Assembly: GCF_000427625.1 (NCBI RefSeq)
Contig: NZ_KE386569.1
Coordinates: 1,326,216-1,390,215 of the forward strand
Origin: Methylobacter luteus IMV-B-3098
GTDB taxonomy: Bacteria > Pseudomonadota > Gammaproteobacteria > Methylococcales > Methylomonadaceae
Length of the DNA stretch: 64,000 nt
Direction: 5' to 3'
Part shown: in pieces, positions 10,524 through 58,201 of the stretch
How the letters are laid out: every line of letters starts with the position of its first letter
Position numbering within the stretch: the first letter of the stretch is position 1
Position numbers and translations under genes: made by a program
Notes under the pieces: generated by a model
What the model saw: the letters and a program-made list of their open reading frames with translations, nothing else
Databases searched by the model: none
What the model was told of the DNA's origin: nothing

Positions 10524-11837
10524 TTAAATGTCTTTCAATAAACGGTTTTTCTCGTCGTTTTCGATCCGTTGCCTGAAGTCGTTGACCACAGTCATAAACC
10601 GCTCGTCCTGCCTGATATCCGGCAAATGATTCTGCCCCCGCCGCTCCAGCGCATTAATAACATAAGCCATCGTCACTTTATTGACATCGACAGCGGGAAG
10701 ATAAACCTCATCGGCATCGTCCTCGGTTTTAACCTGGACAACAATCTGGCACGCCATCAGTTCCAACAGAACGCTATGGACAACATAGGCGGGAATAGCC
10801 AGTCTGGATGCTATTTCAACCGCGCTTAGGGGATTTTGCTGTTCAACAAAATTCTTAATGATCAAATGCGCTATTTTCAGCGCGACAACTTTTTTCAGAA
10901 AAACACTGATGTCTTCAACTTTGTTCTTGCCTTGGTAATCCTCGTAATTCTGCAGATAAAAACTGATCTCGCAACCGAACAGGACGATCATCCAGCCGAT
11001 CTGCAGCCAGATGATGAACAAAGGCAAGGCGGCGAAACTGCCGTAAATGGCGTTATAGCTCGACACGCCGATTTGCAGGCTCAGATAGGCCCACTGCACC
11101 AATTGATAGACAACACCCGTAATCACACCGGCGATAATGCCCGCCTTATAATCCACTTTAAGGTTAGGCATAAAAATAAATGTAAAAGCGAAGAGCGCGG
11201 ACAGAATGATGACCGGCAATAAACCCAGTAATCTAAGCACTAGCAATGTACCTACTTCCGGCAAGTTGATAGCCTCTATCAGCCAGGTTATCTGTGTTTT
11301 CAGAAATACGGTAATACCGCTGGAAATGACCAATAAAACAGGGGCCAGCAGCATGACTGACAGATAGTCGCTTAATTTACGCCCTAGCGGCCTGCCTTTG
11401 TCTATTTTCCAGATATGGTTAAACGATTTTTCGATATGACCGATCAATTTGATCACGGTCCAAAACAAGACAACGATACCGATACCAGCCACCACCTCGC
11501 CTTGCGTACTGGCCAGCATATTTTCCGCAAAATCGATTAATTTCAGCACCACCGCATCCTGGCTTGGCATCTGCTCGAGTAATTGCTTCTTCAGTGTTTT
11601 TTCATAGCCGAAGCCCTTGGCGATGCCAAACAGCAAGGCGATAACCGGTACAATCGCCAATAGCGAATAAAGCGTCAAGGCGGACGCTCTTAAAGGTCCC
11701 AGATCGCGATTGAATCCTTCATAGGACAAGAGAATGACTTTTGTGAATTTCAGCAGTTTCGCCTTGAAAGGCGAAAGCCGCTGTTCGCGCTGTACCCAGA
11801 TGTCTTCTTTAAAATAATCGATGAAATTGAGATTCAT
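10524..11837 (-). CDS. YihY/UPF0761 family inner membrane protein
   Basis: A 437-residue membrane protein of the YihY (BrkB-like) family. An N-terminal helix region contains the family signature SALTLYSLLAIVPVIALLFG (about residues 51-70), then five or six further transmembrane stretches, including the FKHIWKI-like segment SFNHIWKIDKGRP and LFIIWLQIGWMIVLFG (about 274-289). The last ~130 residues are soluble and resemble a winged-helix module seen in the longer members of the family. Function is not established; older RNase BN assignments were withdrawn. It converges on the symporter gene with a single base between the two stop codons. Confidence 0.88.
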   Translation of the reverse strand: MNLNFIDYFKEDIWVQREQRLSPFKAKLLKFTKVILLSYEGFNRDLGPLRASALTLYSLLAIVPVIALLFGIAKGFGYEKTLKKQLLEQMPSQDAVVLKLIDFAENMLASTQGEVVAGIGIVVLFWTVIKLIGHIEKSFNHIWKIDKGRPLGRKLSDYLSVMLLAPVLLVISSGITVFLKTQITWLIEAINLPEVGTLLVLRLLGLLPVIILSALFAFTFIFMPNLKVDYKAGIIAGVITGVVYQLVQWAYLSLQIGVSSYNAIYGSFAALPLFIIWLQIGWMIVLFGCEISFYLQNYEDYQGKNKVEDISVFLKKVVALKIAHLIIKNFVEQQNPLSAVEIASRLAIPAYVVHSVLLELMACQIVVQVKTEDDADEVYLPAVDVNKVTMAYVINALERRGQNHLPDIRQDERFMTVVNDFRQRIENDEKNRLLKDI

Positions 11838-11899
11838 GAGCTGGTCCTATGCTGTCGAATTCCGTTAAATATGACTGCTTGAAGCGCCTCTAATTCAAA

Positions 11900-12076
11900 T
11901 CAATGCGAATCCTTGCTGTAAATCGTGTCAATGAGTCTTTTAAACCATAGCGGCCGAAACAGTACGATAAACAAGCCCATGCCGGCAGTGATCGGAATCG
12001 GGCCGATATCCAGTATCATCAGTAGCAACAATGTAAAAACGCATTTGATTCTCGTAGCCATAGGGCGATCGCTCAT
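11900..12076 (-). CDS. small hydrophobic membrane protein (58 residues)
   Basis: I place the start at the ATG at 12076 (MSDRPMATRIK) and treat the 82-codon in-frame extension upstream as non-coding, because it is compositionally unlike protein. The remainder is one long or two short membrane helices (VFTLLLLMILDIGPIPITAG and MGLFIVLFRPLW) with a basic end (WFKRLIDTIY). The family is unknown to me. It lies 60 bp upstream of the YihY-like gene on the same strand and may share its transcript. Confidence 0.55.
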   Translation of the reverse strand: MSDRPMATRIKCVFTLLLLMILDIGPIPITAGMGLFIVLFRPLWFKRLIDTIYSKDSH

Positions 12077-12531
12077 GAAAACACCTGGTCGAAATAGAAG
12101 TCGATGAATTGAAAAGATTGTAAGGCAATCCGGTTGCCAACAGAAGCTACAACGCATAACGTCATTTAGCGTAAAATATAAAGGTTGAGCGGCCGTGTTT
12201 TGACAATAGCGCATCGCTAAGTCTTTGTCTATCTTGATGCCGGGACTAAATTCAGGATGAATGCCGCTCTCATTAACGCCACGAATTAACCTATGATCCG
12301 TTTCCGACGTACTTGTTGCCATTGGCGCTATTCGTCAGCCGACGGCGATTATTCAAATGTTACCAGGACAAAAACCGGGCAGATGACTGAGGAAGACAGA
12401 TTATTTCAACAAACGGGCCGCCGATGCTTTGATGAGCGCCTTGCCAAGGTATTCGGCAACAGGACCTCCAGAAGCGTGCCTTTTTATAGTGCGATTCGAC
12501 GCATCCAGCCCGATCATATTTAAGGCTGGCC

Positions 12532-45445: not shown

Positions 45446-47101
45446 ATGATCAAGACTTCGCTACCGGCATTACCTGAAACCGGCCTGGCCGGTTTGAAAG
45501 AGCACTGGCGCAGCGATTTGCTGTCGGGGTTTCTGGTTTTTCTTATTGCATTGCCGTTATGCCTGGGCATCTCGATGGCGTCCGGATTTCCGCCTTCGGC
45601 GGGGATTCTTACGGCCATTATCGGCGGCCTGCTGGTGTCGCGCATCAACGGTTCCTACGTGACGATCAACGGGCCGGCCGCCGGCTTGATCGTCGTGGTT
45701 CTGAGTGCCGTGCAAACGCTGGGAGAAGGCGATGCGATGGCCGGCTACCGCTACACGCTGGCGGCGATCGTCGTTGCCAGCGCGCTGCAGATTCTGATGG
45801 GGGTCTTTAAGGCCGGGCGCCTTAGTTCATTTTTTCCGGCGTCGGTCGTGCACGGCATGCTGGCCGCGATCGGCATCATTATCATGACCAAGCAGATTCA
45901 TGTCATGCTCGGCGTGACGCCTGAAGAGGGCAGCCTGTTTTCGACCATGGCACAGATTCCGCACAGCCTGCTGAGCCCCAATCCGGAAATCGCGCTAATC
46001 GGCCTGACCGGACTGGTTATCCTGATCATCTGGTCGCTGTTGAAAAATCCCAAATTGAAAATGATTCCGGCGCCCATTATCGTCGTGCTGGTCGGCATGG
46101 GACTGGGCCGCTATTTTGATTTGAATCACGAGCATATGTATCTGTTTTTGCCGGATGCGCCTTTCATAAGCCATCATGAGGCAACGGTCGGACCGAGGTT
46201 TCTGGTCGCGATCTCCGACAAGTTCATGTCCAGCTTCTATTTTCCCGATTTTGCCAAGGTTGCGACGGTTGAATTCTGGGAAGCCGTGGTCAGCATCTGC
46301 CTGGTAGGCAGCCTTGAAAGCCTGCTCAGTGCCGTCACGGTGGATAAACTGGACCCTTACAGACGCCATTCCGATCTGGACCGCGACTTGACGGCGGTAG
46401 GCATTGGCAACCTGGTCGCCGGCCTGATAGGCGGCATGCCGATGATCGCCGAGATCGTGCGCAGTTCCGCCAACGTCAACAATGGCGCCAAAACCGGCTG
46501 GGCCAATTTCTTTCATGGCGCGTTGCTGTTGCTGTTTGTCGTGCTGTTCCCGCGCCTGATTCACAGCATTCCCCTGGCAGCCTTGGCGGCATTGCTGGTT
46601 TATACCGGTTTTCGTCTGGCCTCACCCAAGGAATTCGCCAAAGTCATGGGTATCGGAAAAGAACAGTTCTTTATTTTTATGGTCACAATCACAGGTGTTC
46701 TGGCGACCGATTTATTGATCGGCGTCGCTATCGGCATTGTGGCCAAGCTGGCTATCCATATTGCACGCGGGGTCTGGCTCAGGAATCTGTTCAAAATTCA
46801 TTTTTCCATCGAACGGCCAAATAGTGATACCGTGGTGGTCAAGCTGACAGGTTCGGCGATTTTTTCCAATTTTCTGCCATTGAAAAAAGCGCTGGCTGCG
46901 CTGGAACCGGGCAAATCGGTTGTTTTTGATTTATCGGACGGGTATCTGATCGACCATACAGTCATGGAGTTCATACATGATTACATGCATAACTATGAAG
47001 CGCATGGCGGCCACTGTAGGCAGATAGGCCGGGCTTCGGAAAAGTTTTCAGATCATGCGCTGGCCGCACGGTTGATGACGGCCGACGAAAGAAAAGGCTA
47101 A
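45446..47101 (+). CDS. SulP/SLC26-type anion permease with STAS domain
   Basis: A 551-residue inner-membrane transporter. I chose the ATG at 45446, preceded by GTGAGGA, over the in-frame 45218. Residues about 20-420 hold the SulP core (LLSGFLVFLIALPLCLGISM, NGPAAGLIVVVL, and the family-typical ANVNNGAKTGWANFFHG region, about 345-361). The last ~110 residues form a STAS domain (VVVKLTGSAIFSNFL, VVFDLSDGYLIDHTVMEFIH). SulP proteins carry sulfate, bicarbonate or other anions. Here the substrate is unknown; a link to the following proton-pumping-type subunits favours bicarbonate or another ion-coupled anion. It ends 65 bp before the complex's first gene. Confidence 0.9.
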   Translation: MIKTSLPALPETGLAGLKEHWRSDLLSGFLVFLIALPLCLGISMASGFPPSAGILTAIIGGLLVSRINGSYVTINGPAAGLIVVVLSAVQTLGEGDAMAGYRYTLAAIVVASALQILMGVFKAGRLSSFFPASVVHGMLAAIGIIIMTKQIHVMLGVTPEEGSLFSTMAQIPHSLLSPNPEIALIGLTGLVILIIWSLLKNPKLKMIPAPIIVVLVGMGLGRYFDLNHEHMYLFLPDAPFISHHEATVGPRFLVAISDKFMSSFYFPDFAKVATVEFWEAVVSICLVGSLESLLSAVTVDKLDPYRRHSDLDRDLTAVGIGNLVAGLIGGMPMIAEIVRSSANVNNGAKTGWANFFHGALLLLFVVLFPRLIHSIPLAALAALLVYTGFRLASPKEFAKVMGIGKEQFFIFMVTITGVLATDLLIGVAIGIVAKLAIHIARGVWLRNLFKIHFSIERPNSDTVVVKLTGSAIFSNFLPLKKALAALEPGKSVVFDLSDGYLIDHTVMEFIHDYMHNYEAHGGHCRQIGRASEKFSDHALAARLMTADERKG

Positions 47102-47166
47102 AGGTTTAGCCAAAGAATGGGCGATCAACCGATCGCCCTGTCCTGAATCGCTTTACGGAGAATTGA

Positions 47167-49248
47167 ATGATTCTTGTATTGGCTTATTGTTCTGTCCTGT
47201 TAAGCTTTGCTTCCTGCCTGCCGGCGCTGCTGATGTATCAGCGCCATAATCTGCCGGCCTTTAACCGGCAGTGGATCATTAATCTGGAAGAGCAGCATTT
47301 CCCGATTCTGATGCGGCGAGCCGTGTTTGGCTTATTGGGCTTGTCGGGTCTTTTCGCCATACTGGCCGGTCTGGGCGTACTGATCACCGGCGAGGTGATG
47401 ACCGACCGGATCAGTCTGGGCCTGCCCTGGCTGCCCTGGCAGGTGCGCTTCGACAATCTGTCCGGCTTCTTCTTTTTGATCATCGGCATTGCCGTTAGCG
47501 CCGTCAGCCTTTACGGCCCTGGCTATGTCTCGACCTATGAAGAAGGCCGGCATCCGTTTGCGGTCCTGAGTTTATTTACCGGCCTCTTTGTCGCCGGCAT
47601 GCTGCTGGTGCTGTTGGCCGATGATGCCTTCTTTTTCATGATCGCCTGGGAACTGATGTCAGTCGCCAGTTATTTTCTGGTGGCGTTTCAGCACGAAAAT
47701 CCGGCCAACCGGCGCGCGGCTTTCCTTTATCTGTTGATGGCGGAAATCGGGGCGCTCGCCATTATTCTGGCTTTCGGCGTGCTGGCCAGCTTTGCCGACG
47801 GCTTTACATTCGATGCCTTGCGCGATGCCCGGTTATCGACCACCTGGGCCAGCATCGCGTTTGTGCTGGCGCTGTTGGGTTTTGGCATGAAAGCGGGGCT
47901 CGTGCCCGTGCACGTCTGGCTGCCGGAAGCGCATCCCGTGGCGCCGTCGCATATTTCGGCTTTGATGAGCGGCGTGATGCTGAAAGTGGCCTTGTACGGC
48001 CTGATCCGGTTCTGTTTTGACCTGATCGGCGAGGTGCACTGGCAATGGGGACTGGCGCTGATGATATTGGGCACGGTCTCGGCCCTGGGCGGCATTCTGT
48101 ACGCCATGATGCAGACCAATCTGAAGCGTCTGCTGGCCTACAGCTCGGTAGAGAATATCGGCATCATCTTCATGGTGCTGGGCCTGTCGATGATTTTCAT
48201 GTCACAGAACCAACCGCAACTGGCGGCGCTGGGTTTTCTGGCGGCGCTGTTCCACGCTTTCAACCATGCCTTGTTCAAGAATCTGCTGTTTCTGGGCGCG
48301 GGCATTATTCATCATCAAACGCATGAGCTGAATATCGACCTGATGGGCGGCCTGATCAAGCGCATGCCGAAGACCGGCATGCTGTTCCTGATCGGCTGCA
48401 TGAGCATTTCGTCGTTGCCGCTGTTTAACGGCTTCGTTTCGGAATGGCTGGCTTTCCAGACCGCGCTGCAGGTCGATGTCATCGACAACGGCGTATTGCG
48501 CAGCCTGATTCCGGTCGCGGCCGCCTCTCTGGCATTAACGGCGGCCCTGGCGGCGGCCTGCTTCGTCAATGTTTTCGGCATCCTGTTTCTGGGACTGCCC
48601 CGCTCACGGCATTCCGACAAAGCCCAGGAAATTACCGATCAAGGCATGCTGGCAGGGCCTGCCCTGCTGGCCGGCCTGTGTTTTCTGTTCGGCATCTTTC
48701 CGGGCCTGATGCTCGGTTTGATCAATGACGTTGCCGGGCAAGTGCTGGGGGCATCCCTGCCGGATGGCGCTACGCTCAGTTGGCTGCACCTGGCGCCCGT
48801 TTCCGCCGACAAGGCGTCCTATTCGGCGCCGCTGGTGCTGGTCGGCGCCCTGATCGCAGCCGGCATCTGTTTCCGGTATCTGCGCCGGAGCCCTGCAACA
48901 GTCATGCGCCGGGCCGAAACCTGGGACTGCGGCTTTGGCGGTCTGACACCGCGTATGCAGTACAGCTCCAGCGCCTTCATGATGCCTTTCAGGCGTATTT
49001 TCGCCAGGGTCTGGATCATCGACGAACAGGTCAGGAAAGACAGCCAGGGCGCCATGAATCAGGATGTCGCGGCGATTCATTATTCCCTGCAGATACAGGA
49101 TCACAGCTGGCCGCGCCTGTACCAGCCGATTGAACGGGCCGTCAACAGGACGGCCAGACTGGTGGGACGCATTCAGACCGGCAATATCCGGACTTATCTG
49201 GGTTATTCGTTCGTTACCTTAATCGTTATGTTATGGATCATTAGTTAA
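47167..49248 (+). CDS. HyfB/NuoL-like membrane subunit of an energy-converting complex
   Basis: A 693-residue integral membrane protein related to the HyfB/HycC subunit of group 4 hydrogenases and to NuoL. About sixteen helices are visible. The proton-channel core is MKAGLVPVHVWLPEAHPVAP (about residues 241-260), with the lysine and histidines of antiporter-type subunits, followed by SHISALMSGVMLKVALYGL. RLLAYSSVENIGI and NHALFKNLLFLGAGIIHH continue the core. The ATG at 47167 follows a GGAG site. It starts the compact block whose genes overlap by one to four bases. Its job would be ion translocation, coupled to the hydrophilic subunits. Confidence 0.9.
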   Translation: MILVLAYCSVLLSFASCLPALLMYQRHNLPAFNRQWIINLEEQHFPILMRRAVFGLLGLSGLFAILAGLGVLITGEVMTDRISLGLPWLPWQVRFDNLSGFFFLIIGIAVSAVSLYGPGYVSTYEEGRHPFAVLSLFTGLFVAGMLLVLLADDAFFFMIAWELMSVASYFLVAFQHENPANRRAAFLYLLMAEIGALAIILAFGVLASFADGFTFDALRDARLSTTWASIAFVLALLGFGMKAGLVPVHVWLPEAHPVAPSHISALMSGVMLKVALYGLIRFCFDLIGEVHWQWGLALMILGTVSALGGILYAMMQTNLKRLLAYSSVENIGIIFMVLGLSMIFMSQNQPQLAALGFLAALFHAFNHALFKNLLFLGAGIIHHQTHELNIDLMGGLIKRMPKTGMLFLIGCMSISSLPLFNGFVSEWLAFQTALQVDVIDNGVLRSLIPVAAASLALTAALAAACFVNVFGILFLGLPRSRHSDKAQEITDQGMLAGPALLAGLCFLFGIFPGLMLGLINDVAGQVLGASLPDGATLSWLHLAPVSADKASYSAPLVLVGALIAAGICFRYLRRSPATVMRRAETWDCGFGGLTPRMQYSSSAFMMPFRRIFARVWIIDEQVRKDSQGAMNQDVAAIHYSLQIQDHSWPRLYQPIERAVNRTARLVGRIQTGNIRTYLGYSFVTLIVMLWIIS

Positions 49249-50192
49249 TGAATTGGTTATTGGCAGTTTTACAGACCGTGCTGTTTGTCGCGCTGGCGCC
49301 CCTGCTGGCGGGCTGGATCAAATGGTGTAAATGTCGCTTGCAGAACCGCAAGGCGCCGTCCTTGTTCCAGCCTTACCGGGACTTGCTCAAGCTGACGCGC
49401 AAGCAGCCGGTGGTCTCGGATCAGGCATCCTGGATCTTCACGACCTCTCCGTACATCATCTTCTCGGCCATGGTGCTGGCCGCCAGCATCGTGCCGCTGG
49501 TGGCCGTTGACCTGCCCACCTCGGCCAACGCCGATGTCATCGTGCTGATCGGTTTTTTTTCTTTCGCCCGGTTTTTTCTGGCATTGGCCGGCCTGGACAT
49601 CGGCACGGCTTTCGGCGGCATGGGTTCATCGCGTGAAATGACGATATCCTCGATGGCTGAACCGGCCATGCTGATGGGTATTTTTGCGCTGACCATGTCC
49701 GCCTCCACGACTAATCTATCGTTCGCTATCGACTTTGTGCTCAATGAAGGACTGGTACTGCGGCCGTCATTCATTTTCGCCCTGCTTTCGCTGATGCTGG
49801 TCGCGATTGCCGAGACCGGGCGCATACCTGTCGATAATCCGGCGACGCATCTGGAGCTGACCATGATCCATGAAGCCATGATCCTGGAATACAGCGGCCG
49901 CCATCTGGCCCTGATCGAATGGGCCAGCCAGTTGAAACTTATGCTGTACGGCGTACTGATCGCCAACATCTTTTTCCCGTGGGGCATTGCCGAACGAATT
50001 ACGGTTGAGGCATTGAAATACGGCCTGCTGGCCATCGTCGTCAAACTGGCCTTGCTGGCGGTTCTGCTGGCGCTGTCGGAAACGCTGTTTGCCAAAATGC
50101 GCCTGTTTCGCGTGCAGGAATTCCTCAGTTTTGCTTACTTGCTGGGCTTGCTGGGCATGTTGAGCCATATTATTCTGGAGGGGGCCCGTTGA
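49248..50192 (+). CDS. HyfC/NuoH-like membrane subunit
   Basis: A 314-residue protein with about eight helices, of the NuoH/HycD family that joins the hydrophilic arm to the membrane. The signature loop region AETGRIPVDNPATHLELTMI (about 185-204) holds the conserved acidic and proline residues; ILEYSGRHLALIEWASQLKL follows. FGGMGSSREMTISSMAEPAM (about 122-141) matches the quinone-channel-like loop of complex I. It starts on the last base of the preceding stop (TAATG). Confidence 0.92.
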   Translation: MNWLLAVLQTVLFVALAPLLAGWIKWCKCRLQNRKAPSLFQPYRDLLKLTRKQPVVSDQASWIFTTSPYIIFSAMVLAASIVPLVAVDLPTSANADVIVLIGFFSFARFFLALAGLDIGTAFGGMGSSREMTISSMAEPAMLMGIFALTMSASTTNLSFAIDFVLNEGLVLRPSFIFALLSLMLVAIAETGRIPVDNPATHLELTMIHEAMILEYSGRHLALIEWASQLKLMLYGVLIANIFFPWGIAERITVEALKYGLLAIVVKLALLAVLLALSETLFAKMRLFRVQEFLSFAYLLGLLGMLSHIILEGAR

Positions 50193-50869
50193 TGAATATA
50201 GAACAACTGGATTTTTACACGCAGGCCGTTTTATCGCTGGCGGCATTGGTCGGGCTCACGTCTTTTCTGATGCTGGGCCAGGGGCGGCTGTTACGGCTGA
50301 TTTTCGTATTTGCGGTACAGGGTTTTTTATTGGCTTTGACCACGGCCGTGGCCGCCTACAGCCTGAATATTCACCATTTGTATATTTCCGCCGTGCTGAC
50401 GCTGGTTCTCAAGGTGATTGTCATTCCGTGGATGCTGCGGCGACTGGTGCTGCAAATGAACATGCACCGTGATGTCGAGGCGTTGAAAAATAATTCCGCA
50501 GTAATGCTGGGCGGCGCTAGCCTGATGGTATTCAGCTATTACATACTGCACCCTATCGTGCAGACCTCTTCTATCGTCATGCTGAATGCGCTGGCGGTCA
50601 GTTTGTCCGTGATGTTATTGGGCATGCTGCTGATGATCTCGCACCGGCAGGCGGTCGCGCATGTGGTCGGTTTTATGTCGATAGAGAACGGCCTGTTTTT
50701 TGCCGCCATTGTCGCCACGCACGGCATGCCGATGGTGGTCGAACTGGGCGTGGCATTCGATGTGCTGGTGGCGGCTGTGCTGTTCGGCATCTTTTTCTTT
50801 CATATCCGCACCAGTATCGATTCGCTCGACGTCGATCTGCTGAACCGCTTGAGCGAGGTGGATAAATGA
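50192..50869 (+). CDS. HyfE-like membrane subunit
   Basis: A 225-residue membrane protein with about six helices, resembling HyfE, which corresponds to a NuoK-like subunit with extra helices. Features are LILKVIVIPWMLRRLV-type sequence (about 66-83) and VVGFMSIENGLFFAAIVATHGMPMVVELG (about 155-185), whose glutamates fit the proton path of NuoK. The ATG at 50192 overlaps the preceding stop (TGATG); an in-frame TTG one codon earlier is less likely. The last codons overlap the HyfF-like start. Confidence 0.85.
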   Translation: MNIEQLDFYTQAVLSLAALVGLTSFLMLGQGRLLRLIFVFAVQGFLLALTTAVAAYSLNIHHLYISAVLTLVLKVIVIPWMLRRLVLQMNMHRDVEALKNNSAVMLGGASLMVFSYYILHPIVQTSSIVMLNALAVSLSVMLLGMLLMISHRQAVAHVVGFMSIENGLFFAAIVATHGMPMVVELGVAFDVLVAAVLFGIFFFHIRTSIDSLDVDLLNRLSEVDK

Positions 50870-52329
50870 TCGCGGCCTATCTGGTGCTCTTGATTCCACT
50901 GACCGGCATGGCCTTTTTCGCGTTGGCCGGACACCGGGCCGATTCCGGTATCTGGAATATCCGCCTGAACGCCATCAATCTCGTTGCCACGGTCTGGCTG
51001 GCCGTTAACGTGCTGCGCGAAGGCACGATTCTGTCATCAGGCAAGGCGTTTCTGGTCGATCCGTTCAACGTCTACCTGATCGTGCTGACGGCTTTCGTCG
51101 GCCTGACCACGGCCATTTTTTCCGCGCCTTACATGGAGCACGAAAAGGAAATCGGCAGGCTCAACGATGCCCGCCTGAAGCTTTACCATGCCATGTATCA
51201 GGGCTTCATGCTGTCAATGTACCTGGTACTGACGACCAACAACATGGGCATCCTGTGGGTCGCGATGGAAGGCGCGACGCTGGCGACGGTGCTGCTGGTC
51301 AGTCTTTATCGCACGCCCGAATCGGTAGAAGCGGCCTGGAAATATTTCATCCTCTGCGGCGTCGGCATCGCGCAGGCGCTGTTCGGCACGATTTTGCTGT
51401 ATTACGCGGCCGAGCAAATAGGCAGCGAAGAAAATGCCCTGCTCTGGTCGGTGCTTTATGAGAATGCCGGCAAGCTCAATCCCGAAGTGCTTAAAATCGC
51501 ATTCGTATTCCTGCTGATCGGCTACGGCACCAAAATCGGCCTCGTGCCGCTGCATAACTGGCTGCCCGATGCGCACTCCGAAGGTCCGACGCCGATGTCG
51601 GCGGTTCTGTCCGGTCTGCTGCTGAATGATGCGCTCTATGCCGTCGTGCGCAACAAAATGCTGGTCGACGGCGCAACCCATTCCGATATGGCCGGTTTCC
51701 TGATGATGGGATTCGGCCTGCTGTCGTTCCTGGTTGGCGCCCTGTTCCTGCATCGGCAAAAAGATATCAAAAGGCTGTTCAGTTATTCCTCGATCGAACA
51801 CATGGGCATGATGACTTTTGCTTTCGGTATCGGCGGCCCATTGGCGACTTTTGCCGCCTTGCTGCATATGACCGTGCATTCCTTGACCAAGTCGGCGATT
51901 TTCGTAACGGTCGGTCATGCCTCCCAACTCGCCGGCACGCAAAGCATGGAAAAAATACGCGGATTGATTAAAACCCAACCGGAAGTCGGCTGGGGCCTGT
52001 TGATCGGCACGGTTTCTATTGCCGGCTTTCCGCCATTCGGCGTGTTTACCAGCGAGTTTCTGGTGCTGCTAGCCACAATGCACAGCTATCCGTGGCTGGC
52101 GCCGTTGTTGTTGCTGGGTATAGGCATTGCCTTCGCGGGCCTGTTCCGGCATATCCAGCCGATCGTCTATGGCGACAGGCCCGAAGGCCAGCAGCCGATC
52201 AAAGCCAACCTGTGGCCGGTCATGATTCATTTGGGTCTGGTGCTCTGGCTGGGCCTGGCTATTCCGGGCTTCCTGGCCGACTGGTTTTCACAGGCGACGA
52301 TATTAATCTCGGGGAGCGCGCCGTTATGA
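50866..52329 (+). CDS. HyfF/NuoN-like antiporter-type membrane subunit
   Basis: A 487-residue membrane protein with about fourteen helices. GYGTKIGLVPLHNWLPDAH (about residues 217-235) and the next block EGPTPMSAVLSGLLLNDALY form the antiporter-type core. KRLFSYSSIEHMGMMTFAFG (about 302-321) and MTVHSLTKSAIFVTVGHASQ follow. It is the second of two antiporter-type subunits; the third found in Hyf (HyfD) has no counterpart here. The start overlaps the preceding stop by four bases (ATGA). Confidence 0.9.
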   Translation: MIAAYLVLLIPLTGMAFFALAGHRADSGIWNIRLNAINLVATVWLAVNVLREGTILSSGKAFLVDPFNVYLIVLTAFVGLTTAIFSAPYMEHEKEIGRLNDARLKLYHAMYQGFMLSMYLVLTTNNMGILWVAMEGATLATVLLVSLYRTPESVEAAWKYFILCGVGIAQALFGTILLYYAAEQIGSEENALLWSVLYENAGKLNPEVLKIAFVFLLIGYGTKIGLVPLHNWLPDAHSEGPTPMSAVLSGLLLNDALYAVVRNKMLVDGATHSDMAGFLMMGFGLLSFLVGALFLHRQKDIKRLFSYSSIEHMGMMTFAFGIGGPLATFAALLHMTVHSLTKSAIFVTVGHASQLAGTQSMEKIRGLIKTQPEVGWGLLIGTVSIAGFPPFGVFTSEFLVLLATMHSYPWLAPLLLLGIGIAFAGLFRHIQPIVYGDRPEGQQPIKANLWPVMIHLGLVLWLGLAIPGFLADWFSQATILISGSAPL

Positions 52330-53909
52330 GTTATTCAAATTCCAGCTGGAAGGTCGATTTTTTAAAGCAGGCTGATGAGGTTGGCATCACAGTCGAACAG
52401 CTCACTATCGGCCCGGCAAGCCTGTGGCGGATTGTCAGCAGCGACTGGCAACGATTCGCGGAGCTGGCCTTGCAGCAAAACCTGCGCTGGGCGGCCGGCT
52501 GGGCCGAGCAGGAGCAGGAATGGTTTTTAATCAATGCCTGTTTCGAAAAGCAGGGCTGTTATGTTCTGCTTAGGACAAAAGTACATAACCCGAAACCGGA
52601 ACTGCCTTCGCAGGCCACGGTATATCCGGCCGCCAGCCGCAGTGAACGCCATACGCAGGATATGTTCGGCCTGAATTTCGTGGGCCATCCCGACAACCGG
52701 CCCTGGACACGGCACAAGGCCTGGCCCAAAAACAGCTATCCGTTGCGCAAGGATTTTCCTGTTCAGGGCGAACCGGAAGCGGTCACGCCGCCCGATCGGG
52801 ATTATTCCTTCGTCAAGGCCTACGGTGCGGGCGTTTATGAAATTCCGGTCGGCCCGGTTCATGCCGGCATTATCGAACCCGGCCACTTCCGCTTTCAGGC
52901 CATGGGCGAAACCATCTTGAATCTGGAAGAGCGCCTCGGCTATACGCACAAGGGCATCGAGAAAATCGCCGAAGGCCGAACGCCCGAACAGCTGGCGCGT
53001 CTGGCCGGACGGGTTTCCGGCGATACTACGATCGGGCATTGCTGGGCGGCCTGCATGGCCATGGAACAGGCCGCCGGCCTTTCCATTCCGCCGCGCGCGG
53101 CCTTGATACGCGGCATTCTGGCCGAGCGTGAGCGGATCGCCAACCATTTGGGCGATATGGGCGCGATCTGCAATGACGTCGGTTTCGCCTTTGCGCAGAT
53201 GCAATTCACGCGCCTGCGGGAACTGTGGCTGCGCTGCAATGCGCAACTGTTCGGCCATCGCCTGCTGATGGACAGGATTGTACCGGGCGGCGTGGCCTGT
53301 GATTTATCCGAGCAGGCCGGTATCGCGATCAAGCGGGGAATATACCAACTGAAAGTTGAATTGGGCGAAATCCTGCCGGCGCTGGATTTGAACTCGTCTC
53401 TGGAAGACAGGCTCTACACGGCCGGCTACCTGCCCGAAGAGATCGCCGCCGCTCTCGGCACATTGGGTTTTGTCGGCCGGGCCAGCGGACAGGATTTCGA
53501 TGTGCGCCGCGACGCACCTTACGCGCCCTATGACCGGCTGACTGTCAAGGTGCCGGTGGAAGCGCAGAGCGATATCGCCTCGCGCTTCTGGGTCAGATAC
53601 AAGGAGATCAGCGTTGCCCTTAAACTGATAGGGCAATTCATCGATCTGCTGGCGCCGGGCGATCTGCTCAGCGACTGGAAAACACCCGAAGCGGGCCGTG
53701 AAGGTCTGGGCATTGTCGAAGGCTGGCGCGGTGAGATCATTACGTATGTCCGTTTTGATGCCGACAATGCCATCGCCCGCTTCTATCCGCGCGATCCCAG
53801 CCTGCTGAACTGGCCAGCGCTGGAAAAGCTCGTGCTGGGTAACATCGTGCCGGATTTTCCGGTCTGCAACAAATCCGTGAACGGTTCCTATTCGGGCCAT
53901 GATTTGTAG
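52326..53909 (+). CDS. NuoCD/HyfG-like large subunit without the nickel-binding cysteines
   Basis: A 527-residue fusion: a NuoC-like N-terminal domain (SERHTQDMFGLNFVGHPDNR, about 106-125) and a NuoD/HycE-like domain (YGAGVYEIPVGPVHAGIIEPGH, about 166-187; ALIRGILAERERIANHLGDM, about 258-277). True group 4 hydrogenases have CGxC near RVCGICG and CxxC near the C-terminus. Here the first reads GRVSGDTTIGHC (228-239), and the second is a single cysteine, VCNKS (C514). The active site therefore cannot hold the NiFe centre. This fits the Ehr (energy-converting hydrogenase-related) type. I start at 52326, overlapping HyfF's stop by four bases; the upstream in-frame extension is rejected. Confidence 0.9.
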   Translation: MSYSNSSWKVDFLKQADEVGITVEQLTIGPASLWRIVSSDWQRFAELALQQNLRWAAGWAEQEQEWFLINACFEKQGCYVLLRTKVHNPKPELPSQATVYPAASRSERHTQDMFGLNFVGHPDNRPWTRHKAWPKNSYPLRKDFPVQGEPEAVTPPDRDYSFVKAYGAGVYEIPVGPVHAGIIEPGHFRFQAMGETILNLEERLGYTHKGIEKIAEGRTPEQLARLAGRVSGDTTIGHCWAACMAMEQAAGLSIPPRAALIRGILAERERIANHLGDMGAICNDVGFAFAQMQFTRLRELWLRCNAQLFGHRLLMDRIVPGGVACDLSEQAGIAIKRGIYQLKVELGEILPALDLNSSLEDRLYTAGYLPEEIAAALGTLGFVGRASGQDFDVRRDAPYAPYDRLTVKVPVEAQSDIASRFWVRYKEISVALKLIGQFIDLLAPGDLLSDWKTPEAGREGLGIVEGWRGEIITYVRFDADNAIARFYPRDPSLLNWPALEKLVLGNIVPDFPVCNKSVNGSYSGHDL

Positions 53910-53918
53910 GAAAGACTC

Positions 53919-54434
53919 ATGCTGAGACTATTTAAAAAAATTCTGACCACCGGCGTAGTCACCGAGCGCGTTAAAGCACCGAAAGACGATGAACTGGAAC
54001 AGCTCGGCATCGAGATTAAAAGGCATATCGACCGGAAATTCTCGGGCAGTATCGCGATCAGGGAAGTCGATGCCGGCTCCTGCAACGGCTGCGAGCTGGA
54101 GATCCATGCGCTCAACAATCCCTTCTATGACATAGAACGCTTCGGCATCCATTTCGTCGCCTCGCCTCGGCATGCCGACGTGCTGCTCGTGACCGGCCCG
54201 GTATCGCGGCACATGCAGACCGCTTTACTGCGCACTTATGAGGCGACGCCCGATCCGAAGTGGGTTATCGCAGCCGGCGATTGCGCCGCCTGCGGCGGTG
54301 AATTCGGCGTGTCCTACGCCAGCTGCGGCGCAGTATCCAACGTCATCCCGGTGGACATGGTGATCCCCGGCTGCCCGCCGACGCCGTTGGTCTTGATGAA
54401 AGGCTTGTTAGGGTTAATGCACAGGCAGAGGTAG
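53919..54434 (+). CDS. HyfI/NuoB-like small subunit with intact Fe-S cysteines
   Basis: A 171-residue soluble protein. It keeps all four ligands of the proximal [4Fe-4S] cluster: SCNGCE (C55, C58), AAGDCA (C122) and PGCPPTP (C152). VRHADVLLVTGPV-like sequence (about 84-96) is typical of NuoB and HycG. So electrons can reach the large subunit even though it lacks NiFe. No separate ferredoxin-like (HyfA, HyfH) gene is found. Its TAG stop (54432-54434) is supplied by a palindromic repeat, so the terminal HRQR may not be ancestral. Confidence 0.92.
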   Translation: MLRLFKKILTTGVVTERVKAPKDDELEQLGIEIKRHIDRKFSGSIAIREVDAGSCNGCELEIHALNNPFYDIERFGIHFVASPRHADVLLVTGPVSRHMQTALLRTYEATPDPKWVIAAGDCAACGGEFGVSYASCGAVSNVIPVDMVIPGCPPTPLVLMKGLLGLMHRQR

Positions 54435-54575: not shown

Positions 54576-55298
54576 ATGACGTTAAAAACAATGAAGACAT
54601 CAAAAATGAGGCTGATTTTACCGCTGCTGATCGGCCTAACGCTTTCGAACCCGATAGCCGCCAAGACGGCTGAAGACTTCCAGACCTGGGGCAATATCAC
54701 GGCCATGGGCAGCCTGGGCGTCCTCAATCCCGATCTGAAAAACTACAAATACTGGCTAGAAGGCCAGGGCCGGTTCGGCGAGGATACCTCGCGTTTCTCT
54801 CAGGGTATGTTGCGTACGGGCCTCGGTTATGCACTGAACGACAATACCAGCGTCTGGCTGGGCTATGCCTTCATTCCCACCGAGGAACCTTTCACTGTCT
54901 CGCCTGTTGACGAGCACCGCATCTGGCAGCAATTGTTATGGAGCGATACATTTTCGTTCGGCACGATCACCAGCCGCAGCCGCTTCGAGCAACGCTTTGT
55001 TCAGAACGGCGAAGATGTCGGCTGGCGTTTCCGGCAGTTGTTGAAACTATCGACGCCGTTGCCCTTCGCGACCGATTTCAGCCTGGTGCTTACTGACGAG
55101 TACTTCGCCAATATCAACCGCACCGACTGGGGCGCCGACGACGGCTTTGACCAGAACCGCGTGTTTGGGGGCGTCGGTTACAATTTTAATAAAAACACCC
55201 GCACGGAAATCGGTTATATGAACCAGTACATCCGCAAAGCCGTCGGGCCAGACAGGATGAGTCATATCCTGTCGGTTAACTTGTATTTGAATTATTGA
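54576..55298 (+). CDS. DUF2490 outer-membrane beta-barrel protein
   Basis: A 240-residue protein with a signal peptide (LILPLLIGLTLSNPIAA, ending near residue 29) and an alternating beta pattern of a DUF2490 barrel: FQTWGNITAMGSLGVL, DNTSVWLGYAFIP, SRSRFEQRFVQNGEDVGWRF, and the C-terminal aromatic-ending VNLYLNY. Starts at M1, M6 or M11 are possible. The family's role is unknown; such barrels often sit near transport or redox systems. It lies between the Ehr-like operon and the kinase/activator pair in the same direction. Confidence 0.75.
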   Translation: MTLKTMKTSKMRLILPLLIGLTLSNPIAAKTAEDFQTWGNITAMGSLGVLNPDLKNYKYWLEGQGRFGEDTSRFSQGMLRTGLGYALNDNTSVWLGYAFIPTEEPFTVSPVDEHRIWQQLLWSDTFSFGTITSRSRFEQRFVQNGEDVGWRFRQLLKLSTPLPFATDFSLVLTDEYFANINRTDWGADDGFDQNRVFGGVGYNFNKNTRTEIGYMNQYIRKAVGPDRMSHILSVNLYLNY

Positions 55299-55358
55299 AG
55301 CAAATGGCGCAAGGTAAAACTTTCAGTTCTTGCCTTGCATCTCAAATCCTGATCCCGA

Positions 55359-56810
55359 ATGAAATCAATTTTCTACCGCCCTGTGCAACTGCGCGGCCTG
55401 GCTTTTTTAGCATTGCTATTACTGGCGCTGGCTATACTCGGCGGCATGATCTGGCGCAATCTGCATCGCTTTGAGACGGTTTTATCCTACGTCACTTATT
55501 CTCACCGCATTCAGAACGTATCGGTCGGCCTGCAGCAATCCTTGATCGAGTATCTGACCGAAGCCGTACCGGTTGCGCCCTCCGAGGCCTTGGCCAGAAC
55601 GCTGGAGGAAATGGATGCGTTAATGACCGATAACCGTCATTTGTCGGAAAAAACCCGGCAAAGTCTGGAAACGGTCAGGGACTTGCTGAGCGATGTGGGC
55701 AAACTGGACCAGTTGGAAAAAAACACGCGCCTGATCACGGCGCTGAAGGTCATGAGCGAAACGCTCGAGAACGAGTCCCTGCAGCGCGAATACTTGCTGG
55801 AAAACATCAGCCGTACCACGGAGACCGAACTGTACCTGGCGCTGGTCATCCTGGCCTGGACGTTGATCGTGGCCGTGCTCTTTCTGCACAGCCGCATCCT
55901 GCATCCGCTCAACGATTTGAAGCAGCTCCTGCAACGGTTGACGGAAGAGAACTATACGCCGATCACGACCGACCACCTTGACCCGCTGCTGCTGCCGGTA
56001 TTCAATAGTTATAACGAGATGGTCAAGCATCTGGCGGAACTGGAGGAAGCCAAGCGCCTGCATGCCCAGTCCCTGCAACAGGAAGTCAAATTGGCTACGC
56101 AGGCCCTGCTGGAGCAGCAATCAAGTCTGGCGCGGGCGGAGCGGCTGGCGGCAATAGGTGAAGTGGCCGCTGAACTGGCGCATGAAATACGCAATCCCCT
56201 GGCCGGCATTCAAATCGCGTTCAGTAATTTCCGCCGCGAAATTCAGGCGCCCGACCAGCAGGAAAGACTGGATATGATCGGCGAGGAGCTGAAGCGACTG
56301 GCCCGGCTGCTCAACGAGATGCTGGACCAGAGCCGGCATTCGCCGGAGCCGGCGACCGAATTCGATGCGGCAACACTGATCCGCGATCTGGTCACCTTGA
56401 CGCGCTACCAGATTGCCGAAAGCGTGCGCCTGGAAATCGATGCACCCTATCCTCTGCCGGTCCAGCTGCCCGAGAGCGCGCTGCGCCAGGCACTGCTGAA
56501 CCTGATCCTGAATGCGGCCGAAGCGCTGGAAGACGAACCGGGCGTGGTCAGCATCAAAGCGCGCAAGGATGCGCAAGGACTCCATATCGATGTCATAGAC
56601 AATGGCCATGGCTTTTCAGAAGATATACTGAACTATGGCATTCGCCCGTTCCGTACCAGTCGCCAGCGCGGCACCGGACTGGGACTGGCTATGGTTCAAC
56701 GCTTTGTCAAAGATATGGGCGGCAGCATCAGACTCACCAATTACCAGCCGCATGGCGCCTGTGTGTCTATCGTTCTGCCGAATAGTCACCTTGCCGGAGA
56801 TCAATCCTGA
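55359..56810 (+). CDS. sensor histidine kinase of an NtrB-like pair
   Basis: A 483-residue membrane kinase. Two helices (about 10-30 and 157-176) enclose a periplasmic helical sensor of about 125 residues, followed by a HAMP-like stretch (HPLNDLKQLLQRLTEENYTP) and a coiled coil. The phospho-accepting histidine is H275 in AHEIRNPLAG. The ATPase part has NLILNAAEAL (N box), DNGHGF and GTGLGLAMVQRFV. It overlaps the activator by one base (TGATGG), so the pair is co-produced. The ligand sensed is unknown; likely candidates relate to the upstream sulP/Ehr module. Confidence 0.93.
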   Translation: MKSIFYRPVQLRGLAFLALLLLALAILGGMIWRNLHRFETVLSYVTYSHRIQNVSVGLQQSLIEYLTEAVPVAPSEALARTLEEMDALMTDNRHLSEKTRQSLETVRDLLSDVGKLDQLEKNTRLITALKVMSETLENESLQREYLLENISRTTETELYLALVILAWTLIVAVLFLHSRILHPLNDLKQLLQRLTEENYTPITTDHLDPLLLPVFNSYNEMVKHLAELEEAKRLHAQSLQQEVKLATQALLEQQSSLARAERLAAIGEVAAELAHEIRNPLAGIQIAFSNFRREIQAPDQQERLDMIGEELKRLARLLNEMLDQSRHSPEPATEFDAATLIRDLVTLTRYQIAESVRLEIDAPYPLPVQLPESALRQALLNLILNAAEALEDEPGVVSIKARKDAQGLHIDVIDNGHGFSEDILNYGIRPFRTSRQRGTGLGLAMVQRFVKDMGGSIRLTNYQPHGACVSIVLPNSHLAGDQS

Positions 56811-58201
56811 TGGAAACCCTGCTGATTATCGAGGACGAAAAACTGTTGGGCTCGGAGCTGTCACGCCACTATCGGCAATCCGGCTGGGAGGTCATGCTGG
56901 CGACCTCGCTGGCCGAAGCCGAGGAATTATTGCTTAGAGATGAGCTGGAGCCTTTGCTGATTCTGTCCGACATGAATCTGCCGGACGGCAATGCGCTGGA
57001 TTTCATGGAAAAGATGAAAAAAAACATCAGCCATGCCGAATGGCTGTTTCTGACCGGCTACGGCAGCGTGCCGGACTCGGTCCGAGCCTTGCGTTTGGGT
57101 GCTTATGATTTTCTGGAAAAGCCCTGCGATCCGGATCGACTCGACCTGGTCGTCAACAGCGCTGCCCGCAGCGCGGCGATACAGCGCCGGGTTATTGACC
57201 AGACACGGCAGGAGCATAGGCGCTATTCGCCGGAAGCCTATGTCGGATCGAGCCGGCAGGCACGCAATGTCCGGGAATTGCTGGCGCGCCTGACCAAAGT
57301 CCCGTTCAGCGCCCTCATCATAGGCGGCGAAACGGGCACCGGCAAAGGGCTGGTTGCCCGCATCCTGCATTATGGCGGCGCCAGGGCGCAACACCCGATG
57401 ATCGAAGTCAATTGCGCCGCTTTGCCGCGCGAACTGCTGGAGTCGGAATTGTTCGGCCACGAACCCGGCGCCTTCACCGGCGCCTCGGGGCGGCATCGCG
57501 GCCTGTTGGAACAGGCCGACGGCGGCACGCTGTTCATGGATGAAATAGGCGAAATGCCGCTCGATTTACAGGCCAAGCTGCTGAAAGCGATCGAGGATCA
57601 CAAAGTCCGGCGGCTGGGCGGCGAGAAGGAAATCACAATCGATGTCCAGATCATCGCGGCCAGTAACCGTGATCTGGAGCGGATGATACGGGACGGCCAT
57701 TTCCGCAGCGATCTCTATCACCGCCTGAGTGTTTTCCGCGTGATGCTGCCGCCTTTGCGCGAAGCCAGGGAGGATCTGGACGAACTGGTGCCGCTATTCG
57801 TGGCCGAATACAACGCCAAGGCCGGACGCCATGTCAAAGAGATTCCCGAACAGGTCTGGGATAAATTGCGCGCTCATTACTGGCCGGGCAATGTCCGTGA
57901 ACTGCGCAATGCCATCGAACGTTGCGTGCTGTTCGCCGACGGTCCGATTTTTCCGGTCCAATGGCTGCAATTGCCCGGCCAGGAAAGCGCGGCTTCGGAA
58001 AACATGGCTTCCGAACCGAAAAACAGGATTTGTCTGCCGTTGGACGGCAGCATGGCGTTGGAAGACATGGATCGTTTCATTATCAAAACCGCCCTGGAAA
58101 GGGCCGACAACAATCTGGCCGCTGCAACGCGGGCATTGGGCACAACGCGGGAAACACTGCGCTACCGGGTGCGTAAATATAATATTAAAACGACGGATTG
58201 A
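56810..58201 (+). CDS. sigma-54-dependent NtrC-family response regulator
   Basis: A 463-residue activator. The receiver domain has the phospho-aspartate D54 in LSDMNLPDG. The AAA+ domain shows Walker [16 protein letters not shown] (about 166-180), the sigma-54-contacting GAFTGA (about 220-225), Walker [15 protein letters not shown] and the R-finger region. A C-terminal Fis-like helix-turn-helix ([24 protein letters not shown]) binds DNA. Its natural target is a -24/-12 promoter. The best one I found in the cluster is at 45382, upstream of sulP. That link is inferred from position. Confidence 0.95.

Follow-up and report, generated by a model that had tools for sequence, protein, structure and literature searches.

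A stretch of 64,000 nucleotides from Methylobacter luteus IMV-B-3098 (the window) carries at positions 45446-54434 a block of seven genes, a gene for an SLC26/SulP-type anion transporter (sulP) and six Hyf-like genes, and we analyzed this block and its relatives for a possible role in inorganic-carbon supply. All seven genes are intact ATG-to-stop frames on the + strand. The sulP gene (45446-47101) encodes a 551-aa protein that matches PF00916 (1.4e-61). It is followed by a hyfB-like gene (47167-49248; 693 aa) for a NuoL/M-type proton-channel subunit, which matches PF00361 and scores 798 bits against NCBIfam NF005086 (cut-off 667); a hyfC-like gene (49248-50192; 314 aa) for a NuoH-type subunit (PF00146, 1.3e-35); a hyfE-like gene (50192-50869; 225 aa) for a membrane subunit with no Pfam match and a match to NF008556 (hydrogenase 4 membrane subunit; 5.8e-22) of 78.6 bits, under its cut-off of 136; a hyfF-like gene (50866-52329; 487 aa) for a NuoN/M-type proton-channel subunit (PF00361; NF005045 at 777.6 bits, cut-off 543); a hyfG-like gene (52326-53909; 527 aa) for a HycE-like large subunit that is a fusion of NuoC and NuoD; and a hyfI-like gene (53919-54434; 171 aa) for a small subunit (PF01058). 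The gap between sulP and hyfB is 65 bp, hyfB and hyfC overlap by 1 base, as do hyfC and hyfE (taking the ATG start), hyfE and hyfF by 4 bases and hyfF and hyfG by 4 bases, and hyfG and hyfI lie 9 bp apart. The coordinates and the Pfam and NCBIfam assignments thus agree with the original prediction, which had described sulP and, 65 bp on, six HyfB/C/E/F/G/I-like genes with tight junctions. The gene order B-C-E-F-G-I is found in 176 of 216 scored loci, and many of the remaining loci are interrupted by contig ends. The sulP-hyf block is a real, conserved module. The genome samples from the order and the class overlap with the GTDB contigs, and the alignment rows counted below are not all independent for this reason.

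The large subunit has lost the ligands of the NiFe site. In the alignment of HyfG with HycE of Escherichia coli formate hydrogenlyase (FHL; 7z0s_E, E 7.8e-70), the RVCGIC motif aligns with RVSGDT and DPCYSC with NGSYSG, and the four ligands are replaced by S231, T234, S521, and G524. HyfG contains eight cysteines, and none of them is in a ligand position. When 23 large subunits are aligned (A1), they share a conserved core, and the protein ends at a C-terminal signature with the consensus VPDFPVCNKSVNGSYSGHDL. Among 217 aligned large subunits from the fetched loci, the ligand positions are occupied by S/T/S/G in 96 and by S/S/S/G in 88; five rows, those of loci L102-L105 and of the first copy of the pair in L274, have all four NiFe cysteines and serve as a positive control. 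Ordinary hydrogenase-4 was rejected as an identity of the block, the NiFe ligands being lost in an alignment that contains this control. In a FastTree phylogeny of 105 rows rooted on the host NuoCD, three cysteine-bearing rows form the sister group of the other 99 rows of that fork, with a support of 1.0 for the joint group and 0.79 for the 99. Because the cysteine-bearing rows are sister to the ligand-free rows, the ligand-free large subunit looks derived from a hydrogenase. The divergent copies in L102-L105, which are about 40% identical to that of the window, retain RICGVC ... CYSC. In L274 (608-2518), a cysteine-bearing copy stands in tandem with a ligand-free block, as a snapshot of the split between hydrogenase and non-hydrogenase. 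A separate NuoCD-like match is present in the host genome (L187). The quinone-site tyrosine of complex I would presumably correspond to G232 of HyfG in our own alignment.

The small and membrane subunits are well preserved. The cysteines C55, C58, C122, and C152 of HyfI, which form one predicted [4Fe-4S] site, are present in 201 of 201 rows. Of the original claims about cysteines, the loss of both NiFe pairs from the large subunit is correct, with VSGDTT at 230-235 and the single C514 (counted from the ATG at 52326), and the retention of the four HyfI cysteines is borne out, C125 and C136 being present as well. In HyfB, E162, K242, K371, and E426 show a conservation of 1.00 and K273 of 0.98 (179 rows); in HyfF, E135, K223, K302, and E397 show a conservation of 1.00 (208 rows); and the acidic residues of HyfC are conserved (190 rows). 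From these residues we infer that the block translocates protons. Antiporter-like membrane subunits together with a NuoB-like small subunit are features that the block shares with group 4 [NiFe] hydrogenases. No NuoEFG- or NuoI-type domain was found among the window proteins scanned, and no ferredoxin-like electron-transfer subunit in the 10 window proteins scanned or, by recognition, among the recurrent neighbors, the two places searched. Likewise, no gene for electron input or a new subunit was recognized among the neighbors in order, class, and named loci, of which not all clusters were identified by model. The recurrent neighbors included a small helix-turn-helix gene, signaling proteins, and housekeeping genes, and many single upstream genes are unrelated (dynamin, helicase, amidohydrolase, MCP, and COX1 proteins).

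These features bear on the proposal that the complex is an FHL-like enzyme linked to formate or hydrogen, with its partner dehydrogenase encoded elsewhere and the adjacency of sulP incidental. Among solved structures, HycE of FHL matches the large subunit best, and papers on Cupriavidus, Nitrospira, and Acidithiobacillus suggest formate oxidation or a formate hydrogenlyase. However, all four NiFe cysteines are missing from 204 of the 217 large subunits (one is present in 8), neither a ferredoxin-like subunit nor a dehydrogenase was recognized among the recurrent neighbors examined (not all clusters identified), and SulP is linked to the block repeatedly; we consider an FHL-like enzyme very improbable. 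The block shares homologous large, small, and membrane subunits with E. coli FHL/hydrogenase-3 and hydrogenase-4. Unlike them, it has no NiFe ligands and no ferredoxin-like subunit, and its HyfG has no tail past the ligand-equivalent NGSYSGHDL.

A hydrogenase-like complex without NiFe ligands is what defines the energy-converting hydrogenase-related (Ehr) complexes, and on its residues the complex is best called Ehr-like. Our tree, drawn from the fetched loci, places the block beside cysteine-bearing homologs. In the literature, the same six genes appear in gene lists of hyf-like/Ehr clusters (PMC5596200, PMC7735108, PMC2864759), and the large subunit is described as lacking the NiFe CxxC or as a non-hydrogenase by HydDB, with its function unknown (PMC10284858, PMC7735108). 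Such clusters are described for Nitrospira (PMC5596200, PMC10284858), and Ehr also in PMC6349859; Cupriavidus carries hyfBCEFGI (H16_A2196-A2201 in C. necator H16; PMC2864759), and hyfBCEFGI of Acidithiobacillus ferrooxidans is the one classed as a non-hydrogenase by HydDB (PMC7735108). In Acidithiobacillus caldus, hyfBCEFG adjoins a gene for a beta carbonic anhydrase and a core copy lies with carbon-fixation genes, and the cluster is read there as a hydrogenase (PMC3826726). Hydrogenase subunits are also reported from Methylocaldum (PMC10974252). In contrast to the published hyf-like/Ehr clusters, the block studied here is linked to SulP, and in relatives to genes for DabAB, RuBisCO, or carbonic anhydrase. 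Apart from A. caldus, the accessible literature, which largely leaves subscription journals uncovered, gave no earlier description of the block alongside genes for SulP, DabA, RuBisCO, or carbonic anhydrase.

The block is widespread. In the order (Methylococcales, judged by named matches), 107 of 201 genomes have a match at E<=1e-20, complex I included, and 94 carriers were chosen by hand from the stronger matches. Because two of these (G052 and G081) have only a cysteine-bearing copy, 92 order genomes have a ligand-free block. In the class, 45 of 369 genomes match at E<=1e-60. Among the GTDB contigs there are at least 582 confirmed relatives of the large subunit, a count in which ligand loss was not checked for each, and the best 80 of these were kept. 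They come from methanotrophs, Thiorhodococcus, Marichromatium, Thioalkalivibrio, Thiobacillus, Thiomonas, Gallionella, Mariprofundus, Nitrospirae, Rhodoferax, Paraburkholderia, Azospirillum, Mesorhizobium, and others. Two genomes of genus g22 (L068 and L191) have hyfF-G-I without hyfB-C-E, and three others of the genus have the full set with SulP; the partial block may reflect assembly breaks or a reduced form.

We then counted SulP genes at the block within the order. Ninety-six order loci were fetched, the window itself being uncounted and stronger matches in G109, G111 (contig C187), and G159 being left out. Setting aside 4 NiFe-bearing copies, 6 loci at contig edges, and 5 without hyfB in reach leaves 81 informative loci. 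A full SulP gene on the same strand is present in 51 of them, upstream of hyfB in 48 (a single gene in 38 and two in tandem in 10) and between hyfF and hyfG in 3. The other loci comprise 3 with a divergent SulP gene, 2 with SulP remnants, and 25 without SulP. Short SulP-like remnants (L050 5006-5266; L079 5054-5188 and 10604-10837; L096 3538-3762, in block orientation) lie either in front of hyfB or in the hyfF-hyfG interval and look like traces of a decayed sulP. In a tree of 85 SulP rows made by a quick method, the module SulPs of the order make up a single group, arranged largely by host family. The copies between hyfF and hyfG also group by host family, the family of the window falls into two groups, and the inserted copy of L078 is a long branch of unsure placement. 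Because the tree follows host families, it suggests an old vertical inheritance of the order sulP with shifts in position. A third SulP of the host (L185 8616-10271), 69% identical to the window SulP, lies away from any block; it adjoins a gene that by eye is multicopper-oxidase-like, and it groups with the hyfB-proximal tandem SulPs of relatives.

Outside the order, SulP is found at the block less often and is of another type. We examined 50 named loci with hyfB and at least 400 bp upstream, whose 2-kb windows total 95 kb. A STAS-type SulP gene lies within 2 kb upstream in seven of them: L205 (with another gene between), L224 (on the opposite strand), L239, L251, L252 (at a contig edge, the STAS part only), L265, and L269. 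In the remaining 448 kb of flank, the only SulP is the tandem partner in L269. The SulP profile, derived from those same loci, may miss other SulP types. None of 40 class loci has SulP by hyfB, and the class locus L154 has a STAS-type SulP before hyfF. Since the STAS-type SulPs found at the block in other bacteria branch deeply in the quick tree as a group of their own, SulP was probably recruited to the block at least twice.

The features of the SulP protein bear on its substrate. By sequence, its best solved-structure match is BicA (6ki1), followed by SLC26Dg, and PF00916 is shared with BicA. Both alignments of 14 SulPs (A2 and A3), which include the two lineages, show E291 and R339 without exception, and BicA has Asp and Gly at these positions. 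We take the Asp of BicA to be part of its Na+ site and a Glu/Arg pair to be the mark of plant sulfate carriers coupled to H+. Because E291/R339 replace the D/G of BicA, these residue roles suggest that SulP would be coupled to H+ rather than Na+. The predicted model (pLDDT, predicted local distance difference test, 71.5) has the SLC26 fold. Pfam detects no C-terminal STAS domain; the model shows alternating strands and helices at 452-528 and matches full-length SLC26 proteins.

Some of these data would also fit an import of sulfate or another anion, such as a dicarboxylate, by SulP for assimilation, with the ex-hydrogenase a separate respiratory complex that shares only regulation. Sulfate carriers fall within PF00916, DauA (C4-dicarboxylate; under its cut-off) is the closest NCBIfam model, SLC26A11 and SULTR4;1 outrank BicA by E-value in the fold search, and the E291/R339 pair resembles that of H+-coupled sulfate carriers. 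However, the identified neighbors with a common theme are carbon genes (DabAB, carbonic anhydrases, and RuBisCO), sulfate-assimilation genes having had no model search, and we regard sulfate or dicarboxylate import as improbable. The original prediction had left the anion as bicarbonate or sulfate, and it is bicarbonate, or inorganic carbon, that the neighbors favor. Bicarbonate is thus the most likely substrate of SulP, and its transport would be inward. In the literature, sulP-can2 is described as a bicarbonate system (PMC6458275), and in Methylococcus capsulatus SulP occurs with carbonic anhydrase (PMC11423575).

The carbon genes at the block are of several kinds. In L052 and L058, hyfI is followed by DabA and DabB genes, which in L092 face it (DabA was tested by PF10070 in L052). 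In Thiomonas (L249), hyfI is followed by genes for a RuBisCO large subunit, a GvpN/CobS-type ATPase, a VWA protein, and a CbbR-like regulator (under cut-off); we assume that the RuBisCO is form II and, by position, that the ATPase and VWA genes are CbbQ and CbbO. In Thiobacillus (L239), the block has SulP ahead of it and, behind it, a CbbR-like regulator and a weak match to a CsoSCA-like carbonic anhydrase; the CsoSCA-like gene (11298-12356, 352 aa) scores 24.9 bits against PF20686 (over 21.5) and 37.4 bits against TIGR02701, far under 241. In a betaproteobacterium (L265), a Cam/CcmM-type gamma carbonic anhydrase gene stands between sulP and hyfB; it has solved-structure matches from 8e-33 and is under the cut-off of the NCBIfam carbonic anhydrase model. 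In the class, a RuBisCO gene begins about 6 kb from the block in one genome (G509) and lies about 30 kb away in two (G282 and G334). Among the matches listed, 125 order genomes have a window-type sulP, and in 19 of them it is at most 3 kb away from dabA (divergently in 17); 11 of these 19 genomes are without the block. In the host, a second SulP gene is clustered with genes for a beta carbonic anhydrase, a DabA of the long type (1092 aa), and NuoM-like and NuoL-like proteins (L186, C1:2818000-2837000), and by eye the cluster also holds a universal-stress-like gene. No DabA (PF10070) was found among the window proteins scanned; it is this one elsewhere in the genome. Since the adjacencies of block and SulP, block and DabAB, and sulP and dabA all occur, each of the three is linked to both of the others. 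Two other candidates were rejected: an 860-aa gene of L103 considered as DabA is ClpB-like, and NuoL-like genes of L239 considered as DAB are Mrp/MBH-type antiporter genes.

Known carbon systems resemble the block in part. DAB/DAC (DabA-DabB), for which a DAB2 structure is available (PMC13144422), shares the PF00361 proton-channel subunit, and its genes adjoin the block or the same sulP subfamily in relatives; unlike DAB/DAC, the block has redox-type subunits and no DabA domain in the window proteins scanned. BicA differs in that SulP is far under its equivalog cut-off, besides the D/G replacement. The NADH-dehydrogenase-type complexes of cyanobacterial CO2 uptake go by the name NDH-1MS. As complex I relatives in inorganic carbon supply they offer an analogy (review of the dissolved inorganic carbon toolkit, PMC10880623), but no CupA/CupB-like subunit was noticed in the block, for which no model search was made, and a NuoI-type gene is absent from it.

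With moderate confidence we favor the reading that the block encodes a proton-pumping, Ehr-like ex-hydrogenase that supports SulP-mediated bicarbonate uptake, and thereby inorganic-carbon supply. The six genes would encode a membrane complex descended from a group 4 NiFe hydrogenase, with the metal site lost and one iron-sulfur cluster and an intact proton-translocating arm retained. Driven by an electron donor/acceptor pair, the complex would translocate protons, and SulP, the secondary anion transporter that is usually encoded with it in Methylococcales, most likely for bicarbonate, would use the resulting proton motive force to move bicarbonate. We infer this functional coupling from the linkage of the genes. 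A joint module of this sort had been proposed in the original prediction. In its favor, the complex is a non-hydrogenase by sequence, the proton-channel residues are conserved, and the adjacency of sulP is conserved in the order (51/81) and is seen elsewhere with the other SulP type; but SulP is no obligate neighbor, and the expected conservation of adjacency fails at most sampled loci outside the order.

Several findings weigh against a bicarbonate uptake module. Because 25 of 81 order loci and 43 of 50 named loci outside the order (within 2 kb upstream) have no SulP, the complex can occur without a neighboring SulP gene. SulP scores 125.4 bits against the NCBIfam BicA equivalog (cut-off 880), its model matches sulfate, chloride, and bicarbonate carriers alike, and the fold comparison does not separate sulfate from bicarbonate carriers. 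The carbon neighbors outside the order are single loci from flank inspection with no pre-set test, and several carbon-gene matches are under curated cut-offs. A search for the host-like beta carbonic anhydrase in 139 fetched stretches returned only the host's own cluster, and in the next 84 stretches only those of RuBisCO regions (L287 and L289). DabA is present in only 10 of 43 class carriers outside the order, and in none of them does a contig carry it close to the block. The host genome lacks RuBisCO, which 30 of 201 order genomes have, only 4 of them of the host's family in this sample. Over all class carriers, RuBisCO is not enriched (22/45 vs 151/324, p=0.87), and it is depleted in the weaker, distant clade (2/17); only in the close clade is it enriched, being present in 20 of 28 carriers vs 153 of 341 others (Fisher p=0.009), where the clade was set at E<1e-160 by a split chosen after seeing the matches and 13 weak RuBisCO matches were dropped beforehand. 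In Nitrospira, the neighboring or co-occurring genes are those of CO dehydrogenase and formate dehydrogenase (PMC5596200).

The absence of RuBisCO from the host would also fit a role in pH or redox homeostasis, in which the complex moves protons and at the same time balances or disposes of electrons, and the bicarbonate carried by SulP, possibly outward, buffers the CO2, formate, and protons from methane oxidation; carbon supply would not be the purpose. Methanotrophs make CO2, and the direction of transport is not readable from sequence. Acidithiobacillus papers propose pH homeostasis both for SulP/Can2 and for the Hyf cluster by carbonic anhydrase. On the other hand, the block is linked to DabAB, a complex that according to the literature accumulates inorganic carbon, and, in a different bacterium, to a RuBisCO gene; we consider pH or redox homeostasis rather unlikely as the main role. 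A bolder form of the bicarbonate uptake reading, which we hold to be doubtful, is that the old hydrogenase pocket has become an energized site for CO2 hydration or for bicarbonate. The highly conserved residues RxSGD(S/T)T ... NKSxNxSYSGxDL-COOH in place of the NiFe site would then form the active site, SulPs of two lineages would have been recruited as the bicarbonate carrier of the complex, and the complex would join NDH-1MS and DAB as a third energy-coupled pump for inorganic carbon that evolved independently. In the accessible literature, the function of the complex is unknown or guessed to involve formate, hydrogen, or CO. The recurrent association with genes for SulP, DabAB, RuBisCO, and carbonic anhydrase points to a testable role in inorganic carbon, from methanotrophs to sulfur and iron oxidizers, for a large subunit with such widespread relatives; if true, it would help to explain how RuBisCO-free methanotrophs meet their CO2 need.

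Downstream of the block, on the + strand, the window encodes a 240-aa DUF2490 protein (54576-55298; PF10677), a sensor histidine kinase (55359-56810), and a sigma-54-dependent response regulator (56810-58201). Each of these genes is linked to the block in a number of order loci, the DUF2490 gene on its downstream side, and the three (54576-58201) are possible regulators of the module. The small helix-turn-helix gene, XRE-like by Pfam in L153, lies directly upstream of hyfB in 8 class loci and 9 named loci outside the order, for example at 13712-14131 of L153 (class cluster d0) and at 168-509 of L206 (named cluster 2).

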